The position numbers and the translations under genes are program-made. The notes below the pieces were generated by a model that had not been told where the DNA came from, searched no databases, and saw nothing but the letters and a program-made list of their open reading frames with translations. DNA of 64,000 nt from Acididesulfobacillus acetoxydans (GTDB lineage: Bacteria; Bacillota; Desulfitobacteriia; Desulfitobacteriales; Desulfitobacteriaceae): positions 496,001 through 560,000 of the forward strand of contig NZ_LR746496.1 of the NCBI RefSeq assembly GCF_902729405.1, in the 5' to 3' direction. Positions 13,144-43,245 of this stretch are shown piece by piece (within the stretch, counting starts at the first letter, position 1; each line of letters opens with the position of its first letter).

Positions 13144-14403
13144 ATGGCATTAAAAAGTATTTTAGTGGTCGGGGGAGGCATCAGCGGACTTACAGCGGCT
13201 GTGGAGGCTTCCGAGGCAGGGATTGAAGTTTATCTGGTTGAGAAAAGACCCTATCTCGGGGGAAGAGTCGCCCAGATGAACCAGTACTTTCCGAAATTAT
13301 GTCCCCCAAACTGTGGCCTGGAAATTAATTTCAGGAGAATAAAACAGAATCCGCGCATCAGAATCTTTACGTTGGCCGAGGTGGAAAAGATTGAGGGCGC
13401 GGAGGGAGATTTTACCGTGACGGTCAAAGCCAATCCCCGCTACGTCAATGAAAACTGCACGGCCTGCGGGAAATGTGCGCAAGTCTGTCCGGTGCAAAGG
13501 GAAAACGAATTTAACTACGGCTTAGGAAAGACGCCGGCCATTTTCAAGGCTCACGAGTTTGCCTTTCCCTTGAAATACGTGATCGACAATAAAGCCTGTT
13601 TGGGTACCGAATGCGGAAAATGCCTCGAAGCTTGTCAGTACCAAGCTATTGAGCTGGACATGCAGGCAAAAAGTTTCAAACTCAATGTTGGCGCCATTGT
13701 TTGGGCTACCGGTTGGGAACCTTATGACGCAGCGAAAATTGACTATTATGGTTACGGACGTTTCGAAAACGTCGTTACAAACGTGATTTTCGAGAGGCTG
13801 GCGTCTGCCAACGGGCCCACCGGCGGCAAACTTCTCCGGCCGTCCGACGGCAAAGAGCTGGAAAGCATAGCTTTTATACAATGCGCCGGTTCCCGGGACG
13901 AAAATCATCTGCCCTATTGTTCCGCGGTTTGCTGTATGGCTTCTTTGAAACAAGCGACCTATGTTAAAGCCCTTAATCCGACGGCGAAAGTCTATATGTT
14001 TTATATAGATGTCAGGGCTATGGGAAAGCACGAAGATTTCTACACCAAGGTCGCAGACGACATCACGTTGGTGAAAGGCAAAGTCGGTGAGATTTCCGAA
14101 GATCCCTCAACAAAAGATCTTACACTTCAGGTAGAAGACCAGTTAACCGGGAACATCATGAGACAAAAAGTTGATATGGTAGTTCTGGCGGCCGGAATGG
14201 TACCCGCTACCTTTGACGCTAAAGTTCCGCTTTCTGTAAGCTACGATGAAGATGGTTTTATTGCCTCCGATTCACAGCAACCCGGGATTTATGGCGCCGG
14301 CTGCGTCAAGAAACCCATGGATGTCGCATCTTCGGTTAAAGATGCCACGGCGGCCGCGCTCAAGGCCATTCAATCTACGGTGAGGAGGCAGCTCAATGGA
14401 TAA
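13144..14403 (+). CDS. qmoA: Quinone-interacting membrane-bound oxidoreductase subunit QmoA (HdrA-like flavoprotein)
   Basis: QmoA is a soluble FAD and Fe-S subunit of the Qmo complex, which passes electrons to APS reductase. The 419-residue protein has an N-terminal FAD motif (VVGGGISG, residues 8-15) and the HdrA-like CPPNC (53-57). One Cys cluster is at 105/108/111/115 and a second at 152/157/160/164. IQCAGSRDENHLPYCSAVCC follows in the middle, and the FAD-closing segment GIYGAGCVKKPMD lies near the end. TAGGAGG lies upstream of the ATG. It overlaps qmoB by 8 bp. Confidence 0.95.
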   Translation: MALKSILVVGGGISGLTAAVEASEAGIEVYLVEKRPYLGGRVAQMNQYFPKLCPPNCGLEINFRRIKQNPRIRIFTLAEVEKIEGAEGDFTVTVKANPRYVNENCTACGKCAQVCPVQRENEFNYGLGKTPAIFKAHEFAFPLKYVIDNKACLGTECGKCLEACQYQAIELDMQAKSFKLNVGAIVWATGWEPYDAAKIDYYGYGRFENVVTNVIFERLASANGPTGGKLLRPSDGKELESIAFIQCAGSRDENHLPYCSAVCCMASLKQATYVKALNPTAKVYMFYIDVRAMGKHEDFYTKVADDITLVKGKVGEISEDPSTKDLTLQVEDQLTGNIMRQKVDMVVLAAGMVPATFDAKVPLSVSYDEDGFIASDSQQPGIYGAGCVKKPMDVASSVKDATAAALKAIQSTVRRQLNG

Positions 14404-16612
14404 AAAAACCGCTGTTTATATTTGTACCGGCTGTGGAATCGGGGAATCTCTCGATATAGATGCCCTCGTTAAGGTGGCCGCAAAGGAGGGAAAAGTTCCT
14501 GTCTGCAAGACGCACGGATTTTTCTGCGGCTCCGAAGGGCTGGCTCAAATTAAAAACGACCTCGAGAACGAAGGCGTCAATTCCGTAGTCATCGCCGGTT
14601 GTTCATCACGCGTTAATTACGATGTATTTGATTTTGGTCCTTCCGTCCTTACGGAAAGAGCGAACATTAGGGAACTGGTTACCTGGACTCACCCGGCCAA
14701 TGATGAAGACACTCAAATGATGGCCGAAGACAATCTGCGCATGAGTCTGGCCAAAATAAAACATGTCGAACCGCCGGAGCCTTTTTGCGGAGAGAACATG
14801 GTAAAAACCGTCCTTGTGGTCGGAGGCGGCCTGACCGGCATTACGGCTGCTTTGGAAGCGGCGAAGACCGGATACAAAACGGTTTTGGTGGAAAAGAATC
14901 AGGCTCTGGGCGGCTGGCTGAACGGATTGCACCGGCTGGCTCCCCGCAAAGCACCCTACACGGAACCGGAGGAAGTTGACATTGCGAACAAAATAAAGGA
15001 ACTTTCCCTTTATCCGGATCTAAAAGTGTATACCGGGGCGGAAATAGAGGAAATCGCAGGCGCGCCGGGAATGTTTGAAGTCAGCATCCGCCAGGACAGC
15101 GGTATCGCGCGGGAGAGAGTCGGTTCCGTCATACTTGCCACGGGTGCCGTTCCTTATGATGCGACAAAGTTGGACCATCTTGCGTACGGCAAGTTCGACA
15201 ATGTGATTACCGCTCAGAAACTAGAAGAGCTGGCCGGCCAAGGAGAAATCGTACGTCCCGGGGACGGCAAGGCAGTTCAAAGTATTGCCTTTATCCAGTG
15301 TGCAGGCTCTCGCGATCCGGAACATCTGCCTTATTGTTCGGCGGTTTGCTGTGTGGAGTCTCTCAAGCAGGCGACTTACCTCAAGGAGCAAAATCCCGAA
15401 GCGGCGGTTTACATTTTCTATAAAGACCTGCGCGCACCCGGTGAATATGAGCGCTTGTACAAAAAGGTTCAGCAGGACGGTGTTATTTTTGTCAGGGGAG
15501 ACATTACCGGGATTGACGAGGATGATGAGAAAAACCTGATCGTCAAGGCACAAGATGTCCTTACCCAGTCGGAAATCAGTACGGAGAGCGTAGACATGGT
15601 TGTGCTGGCGACAGGAATGGTGCCGACAACAGCTTTTGGCGAAAATCCTGAGGCTCAAGGCGAGACTGAGAGTGACGACAAAGCGGCCGCGAGCGAAGTG
15701 ATCCTAAAATCCAACCTGCTCAACTTGGCTTATCGGCAAGGCCCCGAGTTACCGACCCTGAAGTATGGTTTTTCAGATTCTAATTTCATTTGTTTTCCGT
15801 ACGAGACCCGCAGAACCGGAATTTATGCGGCCGGCAGCGTCCGGGCGCCCATGGATGAGGCCTCCTGCGTGGAAGACGCGGCAGGTGCGGCCTTGAAAGC
15901 CATCCAATGCATGGAATTGAGTGACCAGGGATCGGCTGTTCACCCACGCGTATGGGATCTTTCCTTTCCGGAGTTTGCCATGCAAAGATGCACGCAATGC
16001 AAGCGTTGCACGGTGGAGTGCCCGTTTGGCGCCATCAACGAAGATGAAAAGGCCAATCCTTTGCCAAACCCGACCCGTTGCCGCAGGTGCGGGGTCTGTA
16101 TGGGAGCTTGCCCCGAGCGCATCATTTCCTTCAAAAATTATTCCGTGCCGATGATTGGCTCTATGATCAAGGCCATCGAAGTCCCCGACGAAGATGAGGA
16201 AAAACCGAGAATCTTGGTCTTTGCCTGTGAGAATGACGCTTACCCTGCCCTCGATATGGCCGGTATCAACGGGCTTCGCTATAATTCCTGGGTCCGAATC
16301 GTCCCGGTGAGGTGCCTCGGTTCAATCAACCTGGTCTGGATAGCCGATACGCTTTCCAACGGGATTGATGGGATACTCCTTCTCGGCTGCAAACACGGTG
16401 ACGATTATCAGTGCCATTTTGTCAAAGGCAGTGAGCTTGCGGAATACAGGCTGTCCAAAGTATCGGAAACCCTTGACAGGCTGTCGCTCGAGTCTGACCG
16501 GGTACGGATGGAGGAAGTCTCCATTGTGGATTATGACAAGATTCCCGCTATACTGGACAGCTTCGCCGAGAGGCTGGAAGAACTGGGTCCAAACCCCTAC
16601 AAAGGGTTCTAA
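14396..16612 (+). CDS. qmoB: Quinone-interacting oxidoreductase subunit QmoB (HdrA-like with MvhD-like domain)
   Basis: QmoB is the larger HdrA-like subunit of Qmo, at 738 residues. A short N-terminal thiol-rich domain (CTGCGIG, CKTHGFFCG) precedes an FAD motif VVGGGLTG near residue 142. The same IQCAGSRDPEHLPYCSAVCC segment as in QmoA follows. Two 4Fe-4S clusters lie near residues 532-542 and 560-572 (CTQCKRCTVECP, CRRCGVCMGACP). A C-terminal MvhD-like domain (VPVRCLGSINL, LLGCKHGDDYQCHF) is the part known to relay electrons in Hdr/Mvh systems. GGAGG lies before the ATG. Confidence 0.95.
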   Translation: MDKKTAVYICTGCGIGESLDIDALVKVAAKEGKVPVCKTHGFFCGSEGLAQIKNDLENEGVNSVVIAGCSSRVNYDVFDFGPSVLTERANIRELVTWTHPANDEDTQMMAEDNLRMSLAKIKHVEPPEPFCGENMVKTVLVVGGGLTGITAALEAAKTGYKTVLVEKNQALGGWLNGLHRLAPRKAPYTEPEEVDIANKIKELSLYPDLKVYTGAEIEEIAGAPGMFEVSIRQDSGIARERVGSVILATGAVPYDATKLDHLAYGKFDNVITAQKLEELAGQGEIVRPGDGKAVQSIAFIQCAGSRDPEHLPYCSAVCCVESLKQATYLKEQNPEAAVYIFYKDLRAPGEYERLYKKVQQDGVIFVRGDITGIDEDDEKNLIVKAQDVLTQSEISTESVDMVVLATGMVPTTAFGENPEAQGETESDDKAAASEVILKSNLLNLAYRQGPELPTLKYGFSDSNFICFPYETRRTGIYAAGSVRAPMDEASCVEDAAGAALKAIQCMELSDQGSAVHPRVWDLSFPEFAMQRCTQCKRCTVECPFGAINEDEKANPLPNPTRCRRCGVCMGACPERIISFKNYSVPMIGSMIKAIEVPDEDEEKPRILVFACENDAYPALDMAGINGLRYNSWVRIVPVRCLGSINLVWIADTLSNGIDGILLLGCKHGDDYQCHFVKGSELAEYRLSKVSETLDRLSLESDRVRMEEVSIVDYDKIPAILDSFAERLEELGPNPYKGF

Positions 16613-16639
16613 GTCCTTGAACAGCAAAGGAGCATGGTT

Positions 16640-17812
16640 ATGGATGAAATAAAGAATGTCTCTTTGGAGATGAAAGACTACATCGCTTCCTCCGGAGCGG
16701 AGACCCTCAGTTGGTGTATGCAGTGCGGTCTTTGCACCAACCTTTGTCCTTGGCGCTTGGTTCCCGGTGAGGTCAGTGAGAATTTTAACATTCGTAAGAT
16801 GCAACGCCTGGGGCAGCTCGGTTTAGAGGGTTTTGAAGAGGAAAATATTCTCTTTGCCTGTGTTACCTGCGGGATGTGTCAAATTAATTGTCCGCGAAAC
16901 GTCGAAATTATTGACAACGTCCGCTCTATGCGGAATACTACAGTTGGAGCCGGTTTTTTGCCGGCACATTTGCGACCCATTGCCGGCAGCTTGCATGCCA
17001 ACGGCAATCCCTGGTCCGGGGAGCGGGAAAAGCGGGCGGCTTGGCAAAACGGCCTGGATATTCCCGCTTTTACGGAGGACACGGAATATCTCCTGTTCGT
17101 CTGCTGTACCTCCTGTTATGACACACGCAGCCAAAAGATTGCCAAAAGTATTGTCAGACTCCTGAAGGCAGCCGGTGTGAACTTCGGTGTCTTAACGGCG
17201 GAAGAAAATTGCTGCGGTGAGTCCATACGCAAGCTTGGGGACGAGGAACTCTTCCAGAAACTGGCACAAGGGAATATCGATTTATTTAAGAGAAATGGCG
17301 TCAAAAAGATCATTACGACCTCACCCCATTGTCTCTACGCGTTTAAGAAAGATTATCCTGAATTGGGCGGGGAATTCGAGGTTATGCATTATTCGGAGGT
17401 CTTGGCTCAACTTGTCAAGGAAGGCAAACTTGCCTTTCCTGAAGAGCTAGTCAGAAAAGTAACCTTTCATGACCCATGTTACTTGGGCAGGCACAATCAG
17501 GTTTTTGACCCCCCGCGTGAGCTTATTCAGGCAATACCCGGTGTGGAGTTCGTAGAACTTGATCGCAGCAGGAATAAAAGTCTGTGCTGTGCCGGAGGCG
17601 GGGGCAGGATTTGGGCCGAAGTGCCGATGGGTGAGCGTTTTGGGGAATTGCGCATCACCGGCGCTGTCGAAAAACAAGCTGACACCTTGGTGACAGCCTG
17701 CCCTTATTGTATAATTATGTTAGACGATGCCTGCGCGGGTTTGGAAAAGGGAGATGTCCTGCAAGTCATGGAAATGTCGGAACTGCTCTGCAAGGCTTTG
17801 GACCCGAAATAG
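16640..17812 (+). CDS. HdrD-like Fe-S oxidoreductase in the QmoC position
   Basis: The 390-residue soluble protein has two N-terminal 4Fe-4S motifs (CMQCGLCTNLCP, CVTCGMCQINCP), as in HdrC, fused to two CCG domains, as in HdrB. No membrane segment is visible, so it is not a canonical QmoC. In Gram-positive sulfate reducers HdrBC-type proteins are reported to replace QmoC. I start at the ATG at 16640, 7 bases after AAAGGAG. Its CCG part closely resembles that of the membrane protein at 19786 (shared LKAAGVNF, GGEFEV, YLGR). In the first CCG domain the expected CPHC reads SPHC (Ser228), so one cluster ligand seems lost. Confidence 0.88.
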   Translation: MDEIKNVSLEMKDYIASSGAETLSWCMQCGLCTNLCPWRLVPGEVSENFNIRKMQRLGQLGLEGFEEENILFACVTCGMCQINCPRNVEIIDNVRSMRNTTVGAGFLPAHLRPIAGSLHANGNPWSGEREKRAAWQNGLDIPAFTEDTEYLLFVCCTSCYDTRSQKIAKSIVRLLKAAGVNFGVLTAEENCCGESIRKLGDEELFQKLAQGNIDLFKRNGVKKIITTSPHCLYAFKKDYPELGGEFEVMHYSEVLAQLVKEGKLAFPEELVRKVTFHDPCYLGRHNQVFDPPRELIQAIPGVEFVELDRSRNKSLCCAGGGGRIWAEVPMGERFGELRITGAVEKQADTLVTACPYCIIMLDDACAGLEKGDVLQVMEMSELLCKALDPK

Positions 17813-24331: not shown

Positions 24332-24360
24332 TTGACTTAATATATCCTCAGTGATAGTCT
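24332..24360 (+). promoter_or_regulatory. sat promoter with conserved CTCAGTG spacer
   Basis: TTGACT, 17 bp, TAGTCT with extended TGATAGTCT. TATC-N6-GATA spans the spacer-to-minus-10 region, and CTCAGTGNTAGTCTT is shared with the qmo promoter. The start of transcription would lie near 24367, giving a leader of nearly 390 bases. Upstream (24198-24331) a long GGGGAA..TTCCCC pairing may end hppA transcription; no gene is present. Confidence 0.7.
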
Positions 24361-24373: not shown

Positions 24374-24468
24374 GGTTATGATTTGGATAGATTTGTGCAA
24401 ATGGTAACTTCTGTCGGTAAAGAGACAGTCCCGGAATGTTGCCACACATGTGAAAGAAATCATAATCC
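24374..24468 (+). promoter_or_regulatory. sat leader: conserved blocks B and C, potentially structured
   Basis: Block B is at 24374-24398 and block C (TGTGAAAGAAATCATAATCC) at 24449-24468. They match 12748-12773 and 12943-12964 before qmoA. Here 24374-24384 can pair with 24457-24468 (11 pairs, one bulge). Inside lie possible stems 24403-24408/24438-24443 and CTGTC 24411-24415/GACAG 24424-24428. The qmo copy pairs less well, so the structure is not supported by covariation. The rest, 24469-24755, shows no further element or gene. Confidence 0.5.
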
Positions 24469-24755
24469 TTTGCGTCGGAATTTCAGCCGGATATTTTCCG
24501 TCTCATCTTCGGAGAGGCTGAGTGTGCTGCATAACCCCTAAAATCGCAATGGCTAGAGCAAGTGTCCGTGAATTTAAGGGCTGAAACTGCGGAGAGATTG
24601 AGAGAAGACGGACAAAAAATCGTGCCATGGCGGGGGTTTAATATGTTTCCCTGGTTAAGCGCCGATGCAGCATTGCGAATGGGTCATGCGAATTTTTCAG
24701 AGAAGGGGGGGTGAGAAAGAGGAGACCCAACGGTAAGAATAAGGAGGCTTGGATG

Positions 24756-25925
24756 ATGTCGAAACTCGTATCCCCGCATGGCGGAAAGCTGACACCGGTT
24801 TTGCTCCCCGAATCGGAACGGGCCGATTATATGGCCAAAGCAAAAACGTTGCCGGCGATTCGCATGACTTCCAGAGAAACTTCTGATCTTCTGATGATTG
24901 GAATGGGGGCTTTCAGCCCGCTGACAGGATTCATGGGTAAACAAGATTACGAAAGTGTAGTTGGTACAAAGCACTTGAGCAACGGACTCGCTTGGCCGAT
25001 TCCGATTACACTCTCGGTCTCGAAAGAGCAGGCTGCCGGCCTGAAAGACGGGACGGAAGCGGCTTTGGTGGATGATGAAACCGACACTTATGTCGGGATA
25101 ATGACGGTCAGTGAAAAATACGATTATGACAAAGGCAAGGAATGCCGCGAGGTCTTCTTCACGGACGACATGAAGCACCCCGGGGTGCAGAAAGTCCAGG
25201 CTCAGGGGGACGTGAACGTCGGCGGCCCGGTGGTGACCTTCAGCCAGCTGGACTATGACGTAAAATACGGCGCTTACTATGCGACTCCCGCACAAACGAG
25301 GGCCCTGTTTGATGAGAAGGGCTGGGCGACCGTTGCGGCATTTCAAACGCGGAACCCCTTGCACCGCTCGCACGAGTTCTTGTGCAAAATCGGGAATGAG
25401 GTTTGTGACGGACTGCTTATCCACCCGATCGTCGGCAAACTGAAAGAAGGTGACATCCCAGCCGAAGTGCGCCTGGAATGCTACGAGGTCTTGTTGAAGA
25501 ATTACTTCAACGCCCGGACTTCTGTCATGAGGGTCTATCCGATGGAAATGCGTTATGCCGGGCCGAGCGAAGCCATCCTGCACTCCATTTTCCGGCAGAA
25601 CTTCGGTTGCAGCCACCTGCTCGTGGGCCGCGACCACGCGGGAGTCGGGTCGTATTACACCTCCTATCAGGCGCAAGAGCTCTTCGACCAATTCAAGCCG
25701 GGAGAACTGCTTTGTCAGCCTATTAAAGTGACTTCGGCTTTCTACTGCAGTAAATGCCAGGGTATGACGACGGAGAAGACCTGTCCTCACGGCCCGGAAG
25801 ATCACTTGAACATCAGCGGCACCAAGCTGCGGGCTATGTTGGGCAGCGGAGAACTTCCTCCAAGCGAATTCAGCCGGGCTGAGGTTTTGCAAATACTGGT
25901 CCGCTACTATAAGAGTCTGCAGTAG
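24756..25925 (+). CDS. sat: Sulfate adenylyltransferase (ATP sulfurylase)
   Basis: Sat makes adenosine 5'-phosphosulfate and PPi from sulfate and ATP, the first step of sulfate respiration. The active-site motif QTRNPLHRSHE is near residue 196 and GRDHAGVG near residue 291. The Cys/His group CSKC..CPH near the C-terminus is typical of homo-oligomeric bacterial and archaeal enzymes. I start at the ATG at 24756, 8 bases after AAGGAGG; the adjacent ATG at 24753 is equally in frame. The 389 residues are the family length. No APS-kinase domain is fused, consistent with dissimilatory use. Confidence 0.97.
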   Translation: MSKLVSPHGGKLTPVLLPESERADYMAKAKTLPAIRMTSRETSDLLMIGMGAFSPLTGFMGKQDYESVVGTKHLSNGLAWPIPITLSVSKEQAAGLKDGTEAALVDDETDTYVGIMTVSEKYDYDKGKECREVFFTDDMKHPGVQKVQAQGDVNVGGPVVTFSQLDYDVKYGAYYATPAQTRALFDEKGWATVAAFQTRNPLHRSHEFLCKIGNEVCDGLLIHPIVGKLKEGDIPAEVRLECYEVLLKNYFNARTSVMRVYPMEMRYAGPSEAILHSIFRQNFGCSHLLVGRDHAGVGSYYTSYQAQELFDQFKPGELLCQPIKVTSAFYCSKCQGMTTEKTCPHGPEDHLNISGTKLRAMLGSGELPPSEFSRAEVLQILVRYYKSLQ

Positions 25926-25956
25926 GGTGAATGAGAGATCGCTAACGGGCTCGCAA

Positions 25957-25981
25957 TTGTGAAAGAACCCTCAAGTTCTTT
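25957..25981 (+). promoter_or_regulatory. TGTGAAAGAA element and small hairpin before aprB
   Basis: TTGTGAAAGAACCC lies 45 bp before aprB. It shares TGTGAAAGAA with the qmo and sat blocks. Here the element also forms AAAGAAC-CCTCAA-GTTCTTT (25962-25968 with 25975-25981). It could be a regulator half-site or an attenuating hairpin between sat and apr. I see no clear promoter between sat and aprB. Confidence 0.45.
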
Positions 25982-26012
25982 ATTAAAAATATAAATGATG
26001 GAGGTTAAAGCT

Positions 26013-26453
26013 ATGCCAAGTTTTGTTTATGCGGACAAGTGTGACGGATGCAAAGGGCAGGACAAGACTGCTTGCATGTATGTTTGCCCGAATGACTTGA
26101 TGACCCTGGACAAGGAAAGAATGAAAGCCTACAATCGGGACCCCTGGGCTTGCTGGGAATGCCTCTGCTGCGTGAAAGCCTGCCCGCAACAAGCTATGGA
26201 TATGCGCGGCTACGCCGATTTCGTGCCGATGGGCGCGTCCTGCACTCCTCTTCGGGGTTCTGACAGTATTATGTGGACGTTGAAATTCCGTAACGGTACG
26301 CTTAAACGCTTCAAATTCCCGATTCGTACGACCGAGGAAGGGACAGCGGTTCCTGACGGCGGTTACGCACAGGGCGGCGACATCAACGGTGTCGAGCTCT
26401 TTACAGAGCCGGATTCTCTGGGTTCGCCCGTGTGGAGTAAAAAAGGAGTCTGA
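26013..26453 (+). CDS. aprB: Adenylylsulfate (APS) reductase, beta subunit
   Basis: AprB is the two-[4Fe-4S] subunit that hands electrons to the FAD of AprA. The 146-residue protein begins MPSFVYADKCDGCKG. It has cluster ligands CDGC..C..C near residues 10-25 and CWECLCCVKACPQQA near 46-60, followed by the C-terminal tail that wraps AprA. GGAGG lies 8 bases before the ATG; an upstream ATG at 25995 is not needed. aprA follows after 69 bp. Confidence 0.96.
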   Translation: MPSFVYADKCDGCKGQDKTACMYVCPNDLMTLDKERMKAYNRDPWACWECLCCVKACPQQAMDMRGYADFVPMGASCTPLRGSDSIMWTLKFRNGTLKRFKFPIRTTEEGTAVPDGGYAQGGDINGVELFTEPDSLGSPVWSKKGV

Positions 26454-26522
26454 GAGAACAGGAAGGCCGATTACGCCGATTACTCGGAAATGGGAACGAA
26501 ATGAATAGGGAGGTTAATTTTC

Positions 26523-28412
26523 ATGCCGATGAATTTTGAAACCGTCGAAGTGACCACAGATCTTCTTATCGTGGGTGGAGGAATGGCGGCCTGCGGTGCT
26601 GCGGTTGAAGCATCCTACTGGGCCAAAAAGCACGGAATTAAAGTAACCCTGGTCGATAAAGCCGCCATGACACGTTCCGGCGCCGTCGGGATGGGCCTAT
26701 CGGCTATCAATGAATATATCGGGCTGACCGAAGGGGACAACACGGTCGAAGACTACGTTAAATATGTGAAATACGACCTGATGGGGGTCGCCAGGGACGA
26801 CTTGGTCGCCAGTATCGCCCGCCACGTCGACAGCTCGGTGCACTTGTTCGAAAAGTGGGGACTTCCCATTTGGCGCGGAGAAGACGGCAAGTATGTGCAC
26901 GAAGGCCGTTGGCAGCTGATGATCAACGGCGAATCCTATAAAGTCATTGTCGCTGAAGCGGCTAAGAACGCTTTGGGCGCCGAGAATGTTTACGAGAGGA
27001 TCTTCATCACCGAGCCTTTGCTGGACAATGGCCGGGTGGCCGGAGCCGTCGGCTTCAGCGTCCGCGAGAACAAATACTATGTGTTCAAAGCCAAAGCTGT
27101 GCTGGCTGCCATGGGCGGCACGGTCGGCGTGTTCAAACCGCGTTCCACCGGTGAAGGAATGGGCCGTTCCTGGTATCCTCCTTTCTCGACAGGTTCATCC
27201 ACTTATTTCACGATCAAGGCGGGCGCGGAAATGACCTCCCAGGAAGTTCGCTTCGTGCCGATCCGCTTTAAGGATGCTTACGGACCTGTCGGCGCCTGGT
27301 TCCTGCTCTTTAAGTCCAGGGCTACCAACGCTTTCGGCGAAAACTATATGGAAACACACAACGATGTGCTGGAGAAATACGGCAAGTACGGCCTGGCCAA
27401 ACCCACCCCGGCCAACCTGCGTAACTACCAGACGATGTTGGACCTCAACGCCGGCAAAGGACCTGTCTATATGAGGACAGAAGAGGCGATTGCCAACTTG
27501 GCCAAACAGTACGAAGGCGATGAGAAAGCTTTCAAAAAGAAAATGAAGACTCTGGAAGCGGAAGCTTGGGAAGACTTCCTCGATATGACGATTTCACAAG
27601 CCTTACTCTGGGCGGCTACCAACGTGCAGCCTGAAGAGAAGCCCTCGGAAATCGGGCCGACTGAACCTTACTTTATCGGTTCGCATTCCGGCGCGTCCGG
27701 CGCTTGGGTCTCCGGACCAGAAGATCTGTCAGCCGGTACGGACTACTTCTGGGGTTACGCCAACATGACGACTGTTCCCGGGTTGTTTGCCGCCGGTGAC
27801 GCTTCGGGAGCTTCGCCGCACAAATTCTCTTCAGGGTCTCTGACTGAAGGCCGGATTGCCGGTAAGTCGGCCGTTAAGTTCATCCTGGAACACAATACCC
27901 AGCCCAATGTCGACGACAAGCTTGTGGCCGGCCTGAAGGAAGAAATCTATAAGCCGTTTGCCCTTTTCGAAGAGAACAAAGGCCTGACGACCGACGAAAA
28001 CGTCAATCCGAACTATATCTTCCCGAAGATGTTTATGTTCCGGCTGCAAAAAATCATGGACGAATATGTCGGCGGCGTGAGCGCCAGCTTCTCGTTCAAC
28101 CAAACTTCGCTCGACAAAGCGATGGAACTCATCGGCTACCTGAAAGAGGATTCCTCCAAGCTGGTAGCTAGGGACCTCAACGAACTGATGCGGGTTTGGG
28201 AGAACAAGCACAGAATTTGGCAGGCCGAATCGCACGTCCGGGCGGTTGCCTTCCGCGAGGAGACCCGTTGGCCGGGCTACTACTTCCGTACGGACTTCCC
28301 GGAAATGGACGAGGAAAATTGGCACTGCTTTGTGAACATGAAGTGGGATCGCGAGACCGGCGAATGGTCAGTCTTCAAACGTCCGATCATCGATATGTTC
28401 GGCGTCGAGTAA
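26523..28412 (+). CDS. aprA: Adenylylsulfate (APS) reductase, alpha subunit
   Basis: AprA is the FAD subunit that reduces APS to sulfite and AMP. The 629 residues belong to the fumarate-reductase/succinate-dehydrogenase flavoprotein fold, with N-terminal LLIVGGGMAACGAAVEA (about residues 14-30), RSGAVGMGLSAINEYIG and the C-terminal RWPGYYFRTDFPEMD. GGGAGG lies upstream of the ATG. It forms an operon with aprB. Electrons should come from QmoAB, encoded about 10 kb upstream. Confidence 0.97.
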   Translation: MPMNFETVEVTTDLLIVGGGMAACGAAVEASYWAKKHGIKVTLVDKAAMTRSGAVGMGLSAINEYIGLTEGDNTVEDYVKYVKYDLMGVARDDLVASIARHVDSSVHLFEKWGLPIWRGEDGKYVHEGRWQLMINGESYKVIVAEAAKNALGAENVYERIFITEPLLDNGRVAGAVGFSVRENKYYVFKAKAVLAAMGGTVGVFKPRSTGEGMGRSWYPPFSTGSSTYFTIKAGAEMTSQEVRFVPIRFKDAYGPVGAWFLLFKSRATNAFGENYMETHNDVLEKYGKYGLAKPTPANLRNYQTMLDLNAGKGPVYMRTEEAIANLAKQYEGDEKAFKKKMKTLEAEAWEDFLDMTISQALLWAATNVQPEEKPSEIGPTEPYFIGSHSGASGAWVSGPEDLSAGTDYFWGYANMTTVPGLFAAGDASGASPHKFSSGSLTEGRIAGKSAVKFILEHNTQPNVDDKLVAGLKEEIYKPFALFEENKGLTTDENVNPNYIFPKMFMFRLQKIMDEYVGGVSASFSFNQTSLDKAMELIGYLKEDSSKLVARDLNELMRVWENKHRIWQAESHVRAVAFREETRWPGYYFRTDFPEMDEENWHCFVNMKWDRETGEWSVFKRPIIDMFGVE

Positions 28413-28428
28413 GTTAATCCCGAGAGGA

Positions 28429-28459
28429 GCGCGGGCCTGGCTGAGGCCGGGGCCCGCGC
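28429..28459 (+). terminator. GC-rich stem-loop after aprA
   Basis: GCGCGGGCC and GGCCCGCGC form a 9-bp stem 16 bases after the aprA stop. There is no T-run, so it may act as a transcript-stabilising 3' structure or a non-classical terminator. From 28460 to 28996 (over 500 bp) I find no gene, RNA or clear promoter. Confidence 0.45.
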
Positions 28460-28996
28460 CCTGGCAAACGATCGCGGGACCGGGAGAATATGAGTGAACT
28501 GGTTCAGATTAAGCTGAACATCACGACAGTGTCCTGTGGACAGTATCGCCGAAGCGCAAGCTTTCAAAGAATAGCTGCGCGGTGAGGATGACTTCAGAAA
28601 GGCGCGGCGAACGCGCGACGTGCCGGGGACAATAAGACCGAAGGACTGAAAATGGAAGAGTGTACGGGACGGACCGGAAAGTTATGGCTGAAACTCGGAT
28701 GCAGGATCGACAGCACCGGTTAAGATCGTTGATGAAGCGGCCCGGATAAGGGCAGAAGAGAAAGACGGACGAAGTCCGAATCGGAAAATGGGCACAGCCC
28801 GAAGAGTGAGTGGAGAGTGTACAAGCGGAACCGGGCGTGAAGTCAATGAGCGTGGTCTTTGGGTGAAGGTGTGAGGTATCCCTAAACCCGGCGCCAGGTC
28901 ACTCCCTGCCGTCTGCGAACCCAACTGTTGGCATTGGGCGGACCGCCGCCCACACGACAAGTTATGGAGTTCTTCATGAAATGGGGGGAGCTCAAG

Positions 28997-29602
28997 ATGG
29001 AAAAAAAGAAACTTGATTATAAATTGTTGCTGGAGATTTTTCTGGTATTTTTTAAGATTTCGCCGATAACCTTTGGCGGCGGATTTGCCATGATCCCTAT
29101 TATGGAAGACGTGATGGTACATAAGAAGAAGTGGATCGGCAAAGAGGAACTGGTAGACGTCTTTGCCGTCTCACAGTCGGTGCCCGGGGCCATAGCGGTC
29201 AACTCCGCGATCTTTGTCGGCTATCAGATCGCTGGGATTCCTGGGGCGCTGATCGCACTGTTGGGGATCGTGACACCGACTTTCGTCATCATTATCGCCT
29301 TAGGGGTTCTTTTTGCTTCCTTCCAGCATAATGTCCATGTCCAAGCGGCCCTGCGCGGTATCCGCCCTGTGGTCGTAGCCTTGATCGCTTCCGCCGCCTG
29401 GAAGATGAGCAAGGTATCGCTAGTTGACAAGACGTGTGTTGCTTTGTGTGCTGTTTGCGTTATCGCTCTCTTGTTGTTCAAAAGTCTCAACTTAATCTTG
29501 GTAATCATCTCGGGGGCCCTGGTGGGCATAGTTCTGGTGCAGGTGCAAAAGCTGCAGAAGCAGGCCTCAGCGCAAAAGAAAGTACGCGGTGAGAAATTAT
29601 GA
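28997..29602 (+). CDS. Chromate transporter (CHR family), first half-size subunit
   Basis: The protein carries the CHR-family signature FFKISPITFGGGFAMIP near its start, then SQSVPGAIAVNSAIFVGY and four to five hydrophobic segments. Short CHR proteins work as pairs with opposite topology. I start at the ATG at 28997, which has GGGGGGAG 6 bases upstream, giving 201 residues. It overlaps the next gene by 4 bp (ATGA). Chromate is a toxic sulfate analogue, so location beside sulfate genes makes sense, although substrates of this family are often not chromate. Confidence 0.88.
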   Translation: MEKKKLDYKLLLEIFLVFFKISPITFGGGFAMIPIMEDVMVHKKKWIGKEELVDVFAVSQSVPGAIAVNSAIFVGYQIAGIPGALIALLGIVTPTFVIIIALGVLFASFQHNVHVQAALRGIRPVVVALIASAAWKMSKVSLVDKTCVALCAVCVIALLLFKSLNLILVIISGALVGIVLVQVQKLQKQASAQKKVRGEKL

Positions 29603-30141
29603 ACGCTTTTCTGGACTTATTCATCACCTTTTTTAAGTTGGGACTCGTCAGTTTTGGCGGCGGTTACGCCATGATACCGCTTATTCAGACAGAGGTCCAA
29701 AATCACCATTGGCTGAGTATGAGCATATTTACGGACATGATAGCGATCTCGGCTATGGCGCCGGGACCGATAGCTACCAATACCGCGACCATCGTCGGCG
29801 ATAAGTGTTTAGGTTTGCCGGGTGCGGTGGTGGCCTGCCTGGCGGTCACGCTGCCTTCGCTTTTGCTTATATTGGTTATCGGTAAATTGTTTGTAAAGTT
29901 CCAAAATCATCCATTAGTGAAGGCGGCTTTTTACGGCCTCCGGCCAACAATTGTGGGGATTATTGTTTTCGCGGCGGTGAAGTTTGCCCTCAGCGACGGT
30001 ATTATCGGCGGGGGCCATCTGATTGATGTGAAAAGCGCGCTACTGCTGCTTGCTGCCATGGTTATCTTGATCAAAACTAGGTTGCACCCTGCCTACCTGA
30101 TTCTGGCGGCCGGTATCGTGGGCATGGTTATGTTTGGGTAG
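29599..30141 (+). CDS. Chromate transporter (CHR family), second half-size subunit
   Basis: The 180-residue membrane protein has the matching signature FFKLGLVSFGGGYAMIPLI and MAPGPIATNTATIVG. It is the paralogous partner of the preceding gene, with which it overlaps by 4 bp, and the two presumably form a heterodimeric anion transporter. Hydrophobic segments cover about residues 75-180. Confidence 0.88.
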   Translation: MNAFLDLFITFFKLGLVSFGGGYAMIPLIQTEVQNHHWLSMSIFTDMIAISAMAPGPIATNTATIVGDKCLGLPGAVVACLAVTLPSLLLILVIGKLFVKFQNHPLVKAAFYGLRPTIVGIIVFAAVKFALSDGIIGGGHLIDVKSALLLLAAMVILIKTRLHPAYLILAAGIVGMVMFG

Positions 30142-30312
30142 GCTGATGACGGCGCGGACCCGGGAGTGGCGGGTCAAGGGGCCGGAGGCGGGGGCACGGC
30201 GCTCCGGAAAAAATCTTTCAATCATCGTTCACGGCTGAAACGAGCACCTTTCCAGAGACATGGGGGCTGTGTTATAATCATTCTGAAAATAGCCGCGAAA
30301 GAGGTATTTCGG

Positions 30313-30963
30313 ATGAATGATTCCAAGTTTAAGGTGCTGCTCTACTCTGACGGATCTCACCAGGCTTTTTCCGCAGCCGTCTATACCGCCACCCTTTTGA
30401 AGAATACGCCCAACATGTACCTGACTGTCGTACAACTGCAGGAATGTGAGCAAGGCGGAGCCGGTACAGAGTACAGCTGGAAAGAATTAAGGCCCAAGTA
30501 CAAAAGATACTATTGGGGCTGTATCAAAGGCTCGGACTATCGTTGGATTGACACCTGGCCCGCGCGGCCGACGGAAGAGTGGATGAAACGGGTCCTCAGT
30601 GAGAGTGACGCCGAGACGCGCCGGCAATATGACGAGATATTACAGAAAACGAATGACATCTTCGCCCTGCGGGCGACGAATGTGAGCCACCAGGAATTGT
30701 GCACCAGCACCAGCGTTGCCGACGCACCGGATATTTCGGAGACGGTAGACATGATCCTTGAATACGCGACGAAGAATGCCTTTGAACTTATTATTATGGG
30801 TACGCGCGGGCTCTCATCCTTTCACGGGTTGATTCACGGGAGTCTGGCACATACTATGCTCAACAGGTCAGGGATTCCTGTACTATTGATCAAAAAGCTG
30901 CCGCAAGAGTTCATAGACAATTACTTGACGGAGGGCGGAGCTCGCAAAACGGGCGGGGTCTAA
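30313..30963 (+). CDS. Universal stress protein family, enlarged
   Basis: The UspA fold is visible as KVLLYSDGSHQ at the N-terminus and the nucleotide-binding loop MGTRGLSSFHGLIHGS near residue 165. Length is 216 residues against about 145 in typical members. The extra part, about residues 45-110, is aromatic and charged and includes YYWGCIKGSDYRW. The C-terminal LLIKKLPQEFIDNY is shared with the second Usp gene at 33376, so the two are paralogues. TATAAT at 30273-30278 suggests a promoter, with a poor -35. The function is unknown. Confidence 0.85.
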   Translation: MNDSKFKVLLYSDGSHQAFSAAVYTATLLKNTPNMYLTVVQLQECEQGGAGTEYSWKELRPKYKRYYWGCIKGSDYRWIDTWPARPTEEWMKRVLSESDAETRRQYDEILQKTNDIFALRATNVSHQELCTSTSVADAPDISETVDMILEYATKNAFELIIMGTRGLSSFHGLIHGSLAHTMLNRSGIPVLLIKKLPQEFIDNYLTEGGARKTGGV

Positions 30964-30975
30964 AAGTATTTCCTC

Positions 30976-30999
30976 GCCTTGCCGGCCCCGCGGCAAGGC
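30976..30999 (+). terminator. Stem-loop after the first usp gene
   Basis: GCCTTGCCG-GCCCCG-CGGCAAGGC is a 9-bp GC-rich stem 13 bases past the stop codon, without a T-run. It probably separates usp from the following promoter. Confidence 0.5.
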
Positions 31000-31009
31000 G
31001 CCTTGGTGA

Positions 31010-31038
31010 TTGACTTCCCGGGTAGCGCATGCTAGAAT
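31010..31038 (+). promoter_or_regulatory. Promoter of ylbF-like gene
   Basis: TTGACT, 17 bp, TAGAAT with extended TGCTAGAAT is a strong sigma-A-type match. It gives a leader of about 260 bases to the gene at 31303. A further hairpin, GTCTCG-CC-CGAGAC, lies at 31266-31279. Confidence 0.75.
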
Positions 31039-31127
31039 TCAGGACATACGGGGGCAGTATTCGTTTGATCCCGGGGTGTCCGAAGGAGGGAGCGACAGCA
31101 GTATTGGACCTGGGGGGAGCAGGTAAA

Positions 31128-31150
31128 ATGTGAAAGAACCCGCTTTCTTT
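31128..31150 (+). promoter_or_regulatory. TGTGAAAGAA element before ylbF-like gene
   Basis: TGTGAAAGAACCCGC begins at 31129, 91 bases after the -10 box. It contains AAAGAA-CCCGCT-TTCTTT (31133-31138 with 31145-31150), resembling the hairpin before aprB. Confidence 0.45.
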
Positions 31151-31302
31151 TGGAGGTTCCCGGGCCGTTCGTACGTAGGTCAAAGGTGATTGCAAGCGGG
31201 CGAGTTTCACGCGGCCGGTCTCGTGGAGTCGGCCGCAGGGTGGCGATTATACGCGGACGCAGGGAGTCTCGCCCGAGACGAGAAAGATTTGGAGGGTTAA
31301 CG

Positions 31303-31653
31303 ATGAGTCAATTTGACGAGATCATGGAGAAATGCACGGACTTGGGACAAGCGATTGCGCGTACCGCAATCTATAAAGACTTCAAAAAGACAGAGTATGA
31401 GCTTTTGCATAATCCGCAAGCGCGGAAACTTGTGGAGGATTTGCAGAAATTGCGTCAAGAAGCTTATAGGCGTCAGCTTGCCGGCGCTCCCGACAGCCCG
31501 GAGGAGCAAGAGAAAATGAAACAAATGGAGGCGGACTGTTTGAAAGATCCCCAGGTCCAACAGTCGAACAACGCCAATTTGCGCTTTCAGGAGCTGATGG
31601 AGAAGATATCCGGAAAAATTAAAGAAGGAATAAAAACAGTGGATCAGGCATAG
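31303..31653 (+). CDS. YlbF/YmcA family protein
   Basis: The 116-residue, predominantly helical, charged protein matches the YlbF/YmcA (DUF964) family by its layout: residues such as IARTAIYKDFKKTEYELLHNP, a middle region rich in Gln and Glu, and LRFQELMEKISGKIKEGI near the end. In Bacillus, YlbF and YmcA form an Fe-S-containing complex with RicT, which is also encoded in this window (57897). Here it has two Cys (11 and 78). GGAGGG lies 7 bases before the ATG. It precedes hdrC by 241 bp. Confidence 0.75.
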   Translation: MSQFDEIMEKCTDLGQAIARTAIYKDFKKTEYELLHNPQARKLVEDLQKLRQEAYRRQLAGAPDSPEEQEKMKQMEADCLKDPQVQQSNNANLRFQELMEKISGKIKEGIKTVDQA

Positions 31654-31684
31654 GCGGCCATAAGAGAACTTCATTGCGGCGATA

Positions 31685-31713
31685 TTGACCGGCTGCCTTA
31701 CGGGTGCTACGCT
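31685..31713 (+). promoter_or_regulatory. Promoter of hdrC-hdrB
   Basis: TTGACC, 17 bp, TACGCT with extended TGCTACGCT. It follows the ylbF-like gene directly, so hdrCB can be expressed separately from it. Confidence 0.55.
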
Positions 31714-31800
31714 TAAGCCACGAACAGTGGGTGCGTGAACTTCGGGGCAGCCGGCGGTTTTATCAGAAGATAGAGATCTATAGGGGATGCCAGAGAGTAA

Positions 31801-31814
31801 TTGTGAAAGAACTC
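31801..31814 (+). promoter_or_regulatory. TGTGAAAGAA element before hdrC
   Basis: TTGTGAAAGAACTC starts at 31801. The TGTGAAAGAA core starts 89 bases after the -10 box, the same spacing as in the sat leader. No second half-site or hairpin is obvious in this copy. Confidence 0.45.
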
Positions 31815-31894
31815 CCAAGCGCTTAGAAACAAGTGAAGTGAAGAAGAAGTGAGCAAAAGGTGCTGTGCGGTGGTAAAAGAAGGGGGCAATGGAG

Positions 31895-32491
31895 ATGGCG
31901 GCAGAAGTAAGTGGGTCCAAAAATGAGGGATTCGTTAACGATCTGGCGAGCCGCCTGGGGGCACTGCCTTACGGAAAGTTCAGTACGCGGTGTCTGCAGT
32001 GCGGCCTCTGTGCTACGTCATGCCCAACCTGTGAAGTTATGGACTACTCGCCTCAAAGATTGTTCGCCGTGATTAAGGAGGGCAGAGAGAACGATGTCCT
32101 GGGGGCTAACACGATGTGGATGTGCACATCATGTTATAGTTGCAAGGTCATCTGTCCATACGGCATTGCCATAGCTGACATGATGCACGACCTTAAATAC
32201 TTGGCCATTCGAACGGGAAAGTGCGAGTCGGCACAGGCACAATTCTATCTGAGCTTCTGGCGGGAGGTATATCTGCGAGGGAGATCGTTTGAAACCGGTG
32301 TACTGTTCGGTTTTTACCGCCGGCGGGGAAGAACAGGCCTTAAGGAGGCCTTGGGGCGGAGACGATTGGGGTTTAAGATGCTTTCACGCAAGCGGATCAG
32401 CCTCATTCCGCCGCGGAGCGTCAAAGATCCCGAAGCACTGCAAAGAATAATTACAAAGGCTAAAATAATGCAGAACCGAGGCGAAGTGTAA
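31895..32491 (+). CDS. hdrC: Heterodisulfide reductase subunit C-like Fe-S protein
   Basis: The HdrC-type ferredoxin carries two 4Fe-4S motifs: CLQCGLCATSCPTCE near residues 36-50 and CTSCYSCKVICPYG near 77-90. The basic C-terminal part contains an SFWREVYLRGR segment. I prefer the ATG at 31895 (AAGGGGG 8 bases upstream); the ATG at 31889 is possible. The stop overlaps the hdrB start (TAATG). No HdrA is adjacent, so its partner may be QmoA/QmoB or another flavoprotein. Confidence 0.88.
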   Translation: MAAEVSGSKNEGFVNDLASRLGALPYGKFSTRCLQCGLCATSCPTCEVMDYSPQRLFAVIKEGRENDVLGANTMWMCTSCYSCKVICPYGIAIADMMHDLKYLAIRTGKCESAQAQFYLSFWREVYLRGRSFETGVLFGFYRRRGRTGLKEALGRRRLGFKMLSRKRISLIPPRSVKDPEALQRIITKAKIMQNRGEV

Positions 32492-33363
32492 TGCGCATGA
32501 GCTATTATCCCGGTTGTTCAATGGAGAGTATCGCCGTATCTTATGCCAAGTCGCTTCTTGCTGCAGCCGAAGCGCTTGGACTGAGATTGGAGGAAATCCC
32601 GGACTGGAATTGCTGCGGCGCTTCTATCGCATCCGGCGTTGCCGGTGGTTTTGTTCAGCAAGTGTTAGTGGCCAGGAACCTGGCCTTGGCGGAAGAGATG
32701 AAACAGGACGTGCTGGTAGCTTGCAGCTCCTGCTATTTGAATCTTGCGACTGCGAATTTGCGTCTGCAAGAGGACAGCGTATATGCCGGACGGGTGAATA
32801 AGGCGTTGGCTGTCGGAGGTTTGCATTATTCGGGGAGCGTTCGAGTCAAGCGGGCAATCGATGTCATGCTGGGGGAGATCGGCCCTGGGAGGATTGAAGG
32901 TCGGGTGCAAGTGCCCTTAAAGGGACTGAAAGTCGCCGGGTACGTCGGCTGCCAAACGATGCGGGCCCATCCGGGAGATTTCGATCAGGCCGAAAGTCCG
33001 AAGGCGCTGGATAGGCTCATCCGGGCGCTTGGTGCAGAAAACGTAAACTTTGCCCGGCAGACTACCTGCTGCGGGAGTTCGCACGTGGTTCCAGCCTCTG
33101 AGGTTGTGACGGGCCAAGTTAAAGAAATTTTGGCTTCCGCCGTTGAAGCGGGGGCGGATATTATCGTTACGCTCTGTCCCCTTTGCCAGCTTAACTTAGA
33201 AACGCACCAAGAGAAAGTCAATGAGAAGTTCGGCACGGGCTATGAGATTCCGGTCCTCTTCTTCACCCAGTTGATGGCTTATGCCTTCGGGCTGCCCCCG
33301 AACACTTGGGGTTTCGAGCATATGCTTGTATCGCCGAAGATGCCGGCGCCTGCGTCCGCCTAG
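32491..33363 (+). CDS. hdrB: Heterodisulfide reductase subunit B-like protein
   Basis: The 290-residue HdrB-type protein has two CCG domains: YYPGCS, WNCCGAS and CSSCY, then GCQTM, TTCCGSSH and LCPLCQ. Such domains bind the non-cubane 4Fe-4S clusters that reduce disulfides in methanogens. It is translationally coupled to hdrC. In sulfate reducers HdrBC pairs are thought to link the cytoplasmic thiol, quinone or Qmo systems. It ends 12 bp from the convergent usp gene. Confidence 0.92.
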   Translation: MRMSYYPGCSMESIAVSYAKSLLAAAEALGLRLEEIPDWNCCGASIASGVAGGFVQQVLVARNLALAEEMKQDVLVACSSCYLNLATANLRLQEDSVYAGRVNKALAVGGLHYSGSVRVKRAIDVMLGEIGPGRIEGRVQVPLKGLKVAGYVGCQTMRAHPGDFDQAESPKALDRLIRALGAENVNFARQTTCCGSSHVVPASEVVTGQVKEILASAVEAGADIIVTLCPLCQLNLETHQEKVNEKFGTGYEIPVLFFTQLMAYAFGLPPNTWGFEHMLVSPKMPAPASA

Positions 33364-41906: not shown

Positions 41907-41995
41907 GGAGGGGTGTCCGAGCGGTTTAAGGAGCCGGTCTTGAAAACCGGTGACCCCGCAAGGGGCCGTGGGTTCGAATCCCACTCCCTCCGCCA
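41907..41995 (+). tRNA. tRNA-Ser (anticodon TGA)
   Basis: The 89-base class II tRNA has acceptor GGAGGGG/TCCCTCC with discriminator G and encoded CCA, anticodon loop CTTGAAA (TGA at 41941-41943), a long variable arm TGACCCCGCAAGGGGCC, and T-arm GTGGG-TTCGAAT-CCCAC. Confidence 0.97.
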
Positions 41996-42067
41996 GGTTC
42001 GATATTCGAGGTTCGAGACTCGGGGTTCGAGATTCGAGATTCGAGATTCGAGATTCGGGGTTCGAAT
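41996..42067. repeat. GATTCGA heptamer microsatellite after tRNA-Ser
   Basis: About ten imperfect 7-bp units of the form GATTCGA or GGTTCGA follow directly on the tRNA CCA end. The core GGTTCGA resembles the tRNA T-loop, so it may have grown by slippage from the tRNA 3' end. No gene is seen between here and 42238. Confidence 0.7.
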
Positions 42068-42238
42068 GAGAGTCGCTATGCGACAGCGGCTCTTCGCTGC
42101 TGCGGAGCTCCTAGCTTATGATGATCTTGTGGGCATGTCGGATTTTGCTTCTGTGGTTATGCCCCTGTTAAGGCCGTCAAAACTTGTCGATCAGGGGACG
42201 GGGGACGGGGGAAAAGCGCGCGGCGAAGTCAACAGTCT

Positions 42239-42315
42239 GCGCTCGTGGCTCAGCTGGATAGAGCGTCTGACTACGAATCAGAAGGTCGGGGGTTCGAATC
42301 CCTCCGAGCGCACCA
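42239..42315 (+). tRNA. tRNA-Arg (anticodon ACG)
   Basis: The 77-base tRNA has acceptor GCGCTCG/CGAGCGC, discriminator A and encoded CCA, the D-loop CAGCTGGATAG, anticodon stem CTGAC-TACGAAT... with anticodon ACG, and T-arm GGGGG-TTCGAAT-CCCTC. It is read after A34 deamination by TadA, encoded 105 bp downstream. Confidence 0.96.
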
Positions 42316-42318
42316 TAT

Positions 42319-42397
42319 GGCCTCGTAGCTCAGGTGGATAGAGCGGGGGTTTCCTAAACCCTGTCTTGCGGGGGTTCGAGTCCTCCCGGGGCCACCA
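42319..42397 (+). tRNA. tRNA-Arg (anticodon CCT)
   Basis: The 79-base tRNA has acceptor GGCCTCG/CGGGGCC and encoded CCA, anticodon loop TTCCTAA (CCT at 42353-42355), and a T-arm with TTCGAGT. It begins 3 bp after tRNA-Arg(ACG), so both are co-transcribed. Confidence 0.95.
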
Positions 42398-42419
42398 TCA
42401 AAATTCCCACGAGGTGAAC

Positions 42420-42866: not shown

Positions 42867-42892
42867 GAGGGCTGAGACTTTGGCAGGAGGGG

Positions 42893-42935
42893 GTACGTGG
42901 GACCCACTCCCGCTTGTAGAAGTGGGAGTCTTACG
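42893..42935. repeat. GTACGTGG-hairpin-CTTACG repeat, copy 2
   Basis: The 43-bp element has inverted arms ACTCCCGCTT-GTAG-AAGTGGGAGT. It differs from copy 3 (43133) at stem positions with compensating changes, so the hairpin itself is conserved. It resembles ends of IS200/IS605-type or palindrome-associated small elements; no transposase is present. Confidence 0.65.
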
Positions 42936-42957
42936 TTTTGGATACAGTTAATTATTC

Positions 42958-43051: not shown

Positions 43052-43056
43052 TCATG

Positions 43057-43123: not shown

Positions 43124-43132
43124 GAAAGCGCG

Positions 43133-43175: not shown

Positions 43176-43178
43176 ACT

Positions 43179-43208: not shown

Positions 43209-43245
43209 AGTGTCATAATGATGTACATAGAAGGAGGCGAGGATT

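Follow-up and report, generated by a model that had tools for sequence, protein, structure and literature searches.

The closest described systems are those of Desulfovibrio. HcpR sites of the form TTGTGA-N6-TCACAA are predicted before sat and apsAB, overlapping the -10 box (Rodionov 2004, PMC545781); HcpR1 binds the sat promoter at low affinity, with sat expression unchanged, and Rex binds sites identical to those of HcpR1 (PMC5701242); Rex represses sat in D. vulgaris (PMC7531388, citing Christensen 2015), the first-pass annotation of the present sequence having named control of sat by Rex in Desulfovibrio; and rex occurs in five peatland sulfate reducers, Desulfosporosinus bins among them (PMC11451228). 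For such an element in Gram-positive sulfate reducers no literature was found by title or abstract, and qmo, Rex, promoter and sat are absent as whole words from the main text of the Acididesulfobacillus paper PMC10949509. We describe here an element built on the decamer TGTGAAAGAA, found before qmoA, sat, aprB, a ylbF-like and an hdrC-like gene in a stretch of 64,000 nucleotides (nt) of Acididesulfobacillus acetoxydans (contig NZ_LR746496.1, positions 496,001 to 560,000; hereafter the window). Sulfate activation is costly in ATP, and its tuning in Gram-positive sulfate reducers seems little studied. Judged by sequence, the element and its conservation are real, and would represent an operator family of known kind in an unusual placement, with a hypothetical candidate regulator; such switches are known elsewhere, and the placement and the gene set look new.

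The decamer has five matches in the window against 0.13 expected, a number reached in none of 100 shuffles, and is absent from the rest of the window. Each copy lies in a gene gap and on the sense strand of the gene that follows (Table 1), exactly at the coordinates and on the strand given by the first-pass annotation, whose overall span of 24374-31811 omits the copy before qmoA. The single overlap is that of the copy before hdrC with a mechanical open reading frame (ORF) of 207 amino acids, antisense across ylbF and hdrC, which is regarded as spurious. In the whole genome (single contig, 4.52 Mb) the decamer occurs 20 times (13 + 7 on the two strands) and the reversed word 13 times; 11 of the 15 copies outside the window lie inside long ORFs and four outside them. 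Five of the 20 fall within the 1.4% of the genome that the window represents (binomial tail 7e-6): taken alone, the decamer clusters in the window and is close to background in the rest of the genome, and the equal density in unrelated regions that would have spoken against a regulatory element was not found.

Aligned without gaps, the five sites have in common the decamer, a C at position 13 and TT at positions 22-23. The extended pattern TGTGAAAGA-N11-YTT has eight exact matches in A. acetoxydans, namely the five window sites, two before a gene assigned to the MFS family and one at 4250974; the genome of Peptococcaceae bacterium CEB3 (G001), the nearest relative among the genomes compared (Sat 97% identical), has nine, seven of them at places corresponding to A. 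acetoxydans sites. Once a single mismatch is allowed, the real pattern and its reversal are found about equally often (51 vs 49 in A. acetoxydans, 78 vs 79 in CEB3), so only exact matches of the extended pattern carry weight.

The host belongs with the Bacillota, and its relatives are CEB3 and relatives of Desulfosporosinus. In alignments of A. acetoxydans with CEB3 the element is unbroken in all five window copies and in both MFS copies, and before ylbF and hdrC it forms a conserved island among diverged flanks; one MFS site is altered internally between the genomes (GAGAGATTATTCG vs GAGATTTTATTCG) with both ends retained. Conservation reaches further in a neighbouring genus of the Desulfosporosinus group (g6, which includes Desulfosporosinus sp. 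UBA5188). A search of 61 genomes with TGTGAAAGNANTCATA gave 19 matches (reversed control, 0): 16 before qmoA (A. acetoxydans, CEB3 and 14 g6 genomes), two before sat (A. acetoxydans and CEB3) and one elsewhere (L147). In G024, where the match lies at a contig end, qmoA was assigned from the leader and the start codon; in the others QmoA coordinates were used as well. The 18-base-pair (bp) form ATGTGA-N6-TCATAT thus precedes qmoA in 14 Desulfosporosinus-group genomes. QmoA orthologues (E below 1e-200) are present in 18 g6 genomes, 13 of which have the element before a qmoA; G006 and G014 have two qmoA copies and one match each. Among 15 aligned qmoA leaders, 16 of the 18 columns of ATGTGAAAGnAnTCATAT are invariant and both variable columns lie in the N6 core; L153 (G030), nearly identical to L151, was left out of this alignment, and in the upstream comparison the start codon used for L124 was wrong, L126 has hardly any sequence upstream and L134 (partial gene) was omitted. 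That the element is kept at all five places in a sister genome, and before qmoA in 14 genomes of another genus, bears out its proposal as a regulatory element. When seven 20-kb g6 loci around sat were scanned with a matrix, the qmoA site came out on top in five, with scores from 15.4 to 35.6; L065 and L066, the loci with the qmoA copies that lack the site, gave only weak matches (17.0 and 15.7), which the lowest qmoA score does not exceed. QmoA was not found in viral contigs.

The seven A. acetoxydans sites (five in the window, two before the MFS gene) have an exact left half throughout. When agreement with TCACAW after TGTGA was counted over 22 offsets, allowing A or T as the last letter and bearing in mind that the sat and qmoA sites may not be independent, the best fit fell at exactly N6, with 28 of 42 letters; the next best offset gave 21, and the other 21 offsets averaged 12. 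By this geometry, which is that of CRP/FNR or Rex sites, they look like inverted repeats in which one half is strong and the other degenerate. Mismatches to TTGTGA-N6-TCACAA number one in hdrC and two each in sat, aprB and MFS2, and the right halves at N6 read TCATAT (qmoA), TCATAA (sat), CCTCAA (aprB), CCGCTT (ylbF, a poor fit) and TCCCAA (hdrC). The first-pass annotation was correct in seeing the dyad continue in the first two copies, and too narrow in confining it to them. A search of the window for TTGTGA-N6-TCACAA allowing three mismatches or fewer, a check that this annotation had proposed at genome scale, stayed at chance level (27 matches against 20.9 expected; 27 reached in 15 of 100 shuffles).

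Every unit except aprB has a conserved upstream block, in which TTGAC-N18 precedes a -10-like hexamer TAnnnT, and these blocks are inferred to be promoters in use; we trust them as such on account of the strong conservation of the qmoA block in two genera. From the second hexamer to the element there are 88 bases for sat and hdrC, 90 for ylbF, 100 and 207 for the MFS sites, and for qmoA 208 in A. acetoxydans, 138 in CEB3 and 93-131 in g6. If the blocks are promoters, the sites would thus lie 88-208 nt downstream of them and not, as is characteristic of HcpR and CRP/FNR, overlapping or just upstream. The earlier proposal of a shared sulfate-metabolism element with Rex/HcpR-like geometry is supported; a position at the promoter, as predicted for Desulfovibrio, is not supported here. 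For the aprB element no promoter block was recognised by eye, and it is therefore probably inside a sat-apr transcript. Between block and element, 12 of the 15 qmoA leaders contain a further block, TTGTGCnnnTnnTTAC (window 12767-12783), and the sat leader has the similar TTTGTGCAAATGGTAAC at 24392-24408.

Table 1 Sites, promoter-like blocks and genes of the window (window positions), with sites elsewhere in the A. acetoxydans genome and the second Rex genes
Feature	Position	Strand	Remarks
Element before qmoA	12944-12966	+	TGTGAAAGAAATCATATTCCCTT; 18-bp dyad ATGTGA-AAGAAA-TCATAT begins at 12943
Element before sat	24449-24471	+	TGTGAAAGAAATCATAATCCTTT; identical in CEB3
Element between sat and aprB	25958-25980	+	TGTGAAAGAACCCTCAAGTTCTT; identical in CEB3; 32 nt past sat stop codon
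Element before ylbF-like gene	31129-31151	+	TGTGAAAGAACCCGCTTTCTTTT; conserved island, flanks diverged
Element before hdrC-like gene	31802-31824	+	TGTGAAAGAACTCCCAAGCGCTT; TTGTGA-N6-TCCCAA, one mismatch to TTGTGA-N6-TCACAA
Promoter-like block, qmoA	12707-12735	+	TTGACT-N17-TAGTCT, TG before second hexamer; conserved in CEB3 and 14 g6 genomes
Promoter-like block, sat	24332-24360	+	TTGACT-N17-TAGTCT; conserved in CEB3
Putative promoter, ylbF-like gene	31010-31038	+	TTGACT-N17-TAGAAT, extended -10; consensus scan 10/12; conserved in CEB3
Promoter-like block, hdrC-like gene	31685-31713	+	TTGACC-N17-TACGCT; largely conserved in CEB3
qmoA-like gene	13144-14403	+	419 amino acids; HdrA- and TfrB-like by NCBIfam, under cut-offs
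qmoB-like gene	14396-16612	+	Downstream of qmoA-like gene
qmoC-like gene	16634-17812	+	Downstream of qmoA-like gene
sat, sulfate adenylyltransferase	24756-25925	+	NF003166, 524 bits, over cut-off
aprB; aprA	26013-26453; 26523-28412	+	TIGR02060 and TIGR02061, over cut-off
YlbF/YmcA-family gene	31303-31653	+	PF06133; ATG at 31303 is the chosen start
hdrC-like gene; CCG-domain gene	31889-32491; 32491-33363	+	
MFS-gene sites	1110870 and 1110977		Outside window; MFS family assigned to downstream gene
One-mismatch palindromes inside long ORFs	54731, 158580, 2657688, 2785161		
Two further one-mismatch palindromes	555410, 4012315		
RexB, A. acetoxydans	L264: 9308-9976		Second Rex paralogue
RexB, CEB3	L268: 7637-8302		Second Rex paralogue

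The naming of QmoABC rests on gene order, lengths and the first-pass annotation, the qmo models being below the NCBIfam cut-off. A LysR gene (11664-12656) adjoins qmoA upstream; L071 has a 3-hydroxyisobutyrate-dehydrogenase-like gene at that place, so that in this genome at least LysR is not kept as a neighbour of qmoA. Window 28928-30963, in the interval from aprA to ylbF, holds two chromate-transporter half genes and a Usp-like gene; in L071 the ylbF gene directly follows aprA.

Fuller palindromes occur elsewhere in the genome. With up to two mismatches, TTGTGA-N6-TCACAA is found 124 times per strand in A. acetoxydans against 82 for the reversed pattern. Twelve places differ from it by one mismatch, six of them before genes (hdrC, dsr, sulP, Usp, PALP-family and MFS; for the others see Table 1). 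The first-pass annotation had suggested a check of dsrAB: the decamer is missing there, and the leader of the dsr operon contains instead the fuller palindrome TTGTGAACTGATTCACCA; it stands 511 nt ahead of dsrA, follows a TTGACA-N17-TAGTCT block at a distance of 66 nt and has one mismatch to TTGTGAA-N4-TTCACAA. Its CEB3 counterpart is TTGTGAACCGATTCACCA, at the same 66-nt distance from the block. A SulP sulfate permease gene (TIGR00815, over cut-off) is preceded by TTGTGAGCACAATCACAT, with one mismatch, and a Usp gene by another one-mismatch palindrome; the distance from a -10-like hexamer to the start of the palindrome is 4 nt for sulP and 2 nt for usp, and both upstream regions contain CCTATAGACAC. 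A further one-mismatch palindrome lies about 900 bp before a PALP-family, cysteine-synthase-like gene. The dsr, sulP and usp palindromes resemble the window sites in TTGTGA-N6-TCAC and in having promoter-like blocks nearby, and differ from them in that an AAGAA core and a shared YTT tail were not noted there. In the dsr leaders of g6 (L240, L241, L243, L246 and L247) another palindrome, TAGTGTTAATTTACACAA, is seen 245-310 nt before dsrA, with near variants in L238 and L242.

Rex recognises TTGTGAA-N4-TTCACAA, whose half-site TTGTGAA is the same as here, and binds NAD(H) through a GxGxxG loop. Genes with the Rex DNA-binding domain (PF06971) number two in A. acetoxydans and two in CEB3, and one each in the g6 genomes G020, G022, G006 and G017. 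Both A. acetoxydans proteins score above the NF003993 cut-off, retain VRKDLAYFGEFGT and are matched by Rex structures in the PDB. RexB is 55-56% identical to A. acetoxydans RexA; where RexA has VGLGNLG, RexB has IGEPG (A. acetoxydans) or VGEPG (CEB3), so that the GxGxxG motif is lost, the stretch being two residues shorter overall with a gap placement that depends on the aligner. In A. acetoxydans rexB follows sulP at a distance of about 900 bp. CRP/FNR domains (PF13545) gave 16 matches in A. acetoxydans at E<=1e-3, ten of them over the cut-off, and none was identified as HcpR. With two Rex genes and numerous CRP/FNR domains, both regulator families remain candidates.

The present sites resemble those of the Desulfovibrio HcpR regulon in half-site, N6 spacing and the targets sat and apr; unlike there, only one half is well kept here, the sites lie 88-208 nt downstream of the blocks, qmo, hdrC, ylbF and an MFS gene are also included, and the host is a member of the Bacillota. 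The repression of sat by Rex in D. vulgaris shares with this locus the target sat and the presence of Rex genes. It differs in that here the right half TTCACAA is mostly lost (the right arm of the Rex consensus is not retained in the seven decamer sites), the position is another, and there is a second Rex with a disrupted NAD-binding motif.

We put the chances at about even that the decamer is one half of an operator at which a Rex or CRP/FNR dimer represses sulfate-respiration units from within their leaders. TGTGAAAGAA would be the strong half of a putative operator WTGTGA-N6-(degenerate TCACAW), presumably bound by a dimeric regulator of one of these kinds, and such operators would mark most of the dissimilatory sulfate reduction transcription units seen here in this genus. 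With the operator inside the 5' leader, 88-208 nt past the blocks, a roadblock to elongation, or repression with looping, would be likelier than a block of promoter entry. The likeliest regulator would be Rex, which has an ordinary copy and a second one whose NAD-binding motif is disrupted, and an HcpR-like CRP/FNR protein would be the close alternative; protein binding, the identity of the protein and repression are all inferred from the DNA and from protein families. Within a known type of control, the location inside leaders and the altered second Rex would be novel; with the positions of a conserved operator given and candidate regulators named, the question can be put to experiment. A more specific version, in which the duplicated Rex with its disrupted glycine motif took over the lopsided operator and imposes a directional leader roadblock on sat, apr, qmo, hdr and perhaps sulP and dsr in response to a signal other than NADH, strikes us as improbable.

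Several observations weigh against this leader-operator reading. A symmetric operator would not need the same orientation at all seven sites, and a CRP or Rex dyad predicts no YTT tail (positions 21-23, common to all seven); constant orientation, AAGA core and YTT tail are unexplained by a dimeric repressor. The right half is poor in ylbF (3/6) and MFS1 (2/6). Placement this far downstream is unusual for Rex and HcpR, the predicted Desulfovibrio site overlapping the -10 box, and the sat, qmoA and hdrC blocks were not listed by a consensus promoter scan. Within g6 the exact form precedes qmoA only, none being seen before g6 sat or aprB, and five of the 18 g6 genomes with QmoA (G019, G031, G032, G034 and G035) have no exact match in the sequence searched. 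The excess of TTGTGA-N6-TCACAA is small in CEB3 (140 vs 125 reversed), and 16 dsr leaders of other genomes (L236 with only 216 bases) lack TTGTGAA-N4-TTCACAA within two mismatches; L248, in which the dsrA start could not be placed, was not judged. Some of the fuller palindromes look like CRP/FNR activator sites: that at 1477923, which lies ahead of an MFS gene and is overlapped by a mechanical ORF start, stands 20 nt before TATAAT, the spacing of CRP/FNR activators. No sulP was seen near rexB in the CEB3 stretch, and in metatranscriptomes rex transcripts of peatland sulfate reducers, Desulfosporosinus among them, are low and similar under oxic and anoxic conditions (PMC11451228). In alignment of the sat leader with 18 further g6 and Desulfotomaculum-like loci (one short) no counterpart of the element was seen. 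No exact decamer is common to three intergenic places in seven 20-kb g6 loci except an A-rich word in L070, and one antisense match lies inside the sat gene of L029.

The main rival, which we consider unlikely, is that the element acts as RNA, as a hairpin AUGUGA-AAGWAW-UCAUAU or a landing site for a small RNA or protein, and controls translation, stability or elongation. Its position in the leader, at least 88 nt past the second hexamer wherever a block was found, would suit this, as would the sense orientation of seven of seven sites and the probable location of the aprB copy within a transcript; the sole mismatch of the qmoA dyad (G3 vs T16) would be a G-U pair, and by eye MFS2 retains G-U pairs where aprB has A-U and C-G. 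When the sat, aprB, ylbF, hdrC, MFS and 15 qmoA leaders were folded, however, no common structure appeared around the element: AUGUGA/UCAUAU was paired in seven of the 15 qmoA leaders, aprB formed AAAGAAC/GUUCUUU, and hdrC and ylbF differed, while a right-half signal at exactly N6 is the expectation for a DNA dyad. Rfam scans gave only tRNA, signal recognition particle RNA and chance matches (window 12000-34000 at E<=1, a human long non-coding RNA family at E 0.95; L089, none at gathering). Doubtful to a greater degree is a second promoter containing the element, either as an activator site or as a spacer with a -10 at CATAAT/CATATT. The consensus scan did give TTGCCA-16-CATAAT across the sat site (24439-24466), CRP/FNR proteins often activate, and one palindrome in the genome has activator-like spacing. 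In the 15 qmoA leaders, however, nothing resembling a -10 is conserved past the element, CATAWT is missing from the aprB, ylbF, hdrC and MFS sites, and at aprB a transcript beginning about 41 nt past the middle of the site would have next to no leader ahead of the ribosome site.

Two further explanations carry very little weight with us. T-GTG-AAA-GAR could open a short leader peptide, Met-Lys-Glu, and GTG AAA GAA/GAG does open a frame in seven of seven sites, the change of GAA to GAG being at a third position; no conserved ribosome-binding site is seen upstream by eye, the g6 changes GAA to GTA and ATC to TTC are not at third positions, and the conserved TT at 22-23 straddles two codons. We think it equally far-fetched that the sites are a chance cluster or stem from duplication of a sequence block without regulatory meaning. 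The sat and qmoA leaders are alike over several blocks, and those two sites may be mutual copies, but by eye the sequences around the aprB, ylbF and hdrC sites show no relationship, and the excess over expectation in the window, together with conservation within diverged flanks and in another genus, argues against chance. A CcpA-cre reading was dropped by eye, as was that of an alternative-sigma promoter, the second box not being common to the sites.

The g6 sat leaders (among L028-L038) are long and have conserved, hairpin-like blocks; two of them, L029 and L036, had no match in Rfam. The 3' part of 11 g6 qmoA leaders (L151:1606-1735 and ten others) contains a structured RNA of about 130 nt with three hairpins, in which the loops AAAGCAAAU and UGCUAUAAGG are conserved; its sole Rfam match, to a human long non-coding RNA family on the opposite strand (E 0.83), is put down to chance. 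A model of this RNA detected it in 39 of 100 genomes at E<=1e-3 (rough E-values), with up to six copies per genome, no match in A. acetoxydans and one in CEB3. Ten of the 36 copies read for the next gene stand before qmoA-like starts; others precede genes for a NicO nickel transporter, an acyl-CoA dehydrogenase, a cyclopropane-synthase-like protein, a pterin-binding enzyme and DUF6951 (10 genes tested). Over 43 copies, in an alignment fitted to the model, 15 of 27 pairs change on both sides against 5.1 in shuffles, and the RNA is a candidate riboswitch or dispersed element. Elsewhere in the window, 41907-45354 holds five tRNA matches and a large signal recognition particle RNA.

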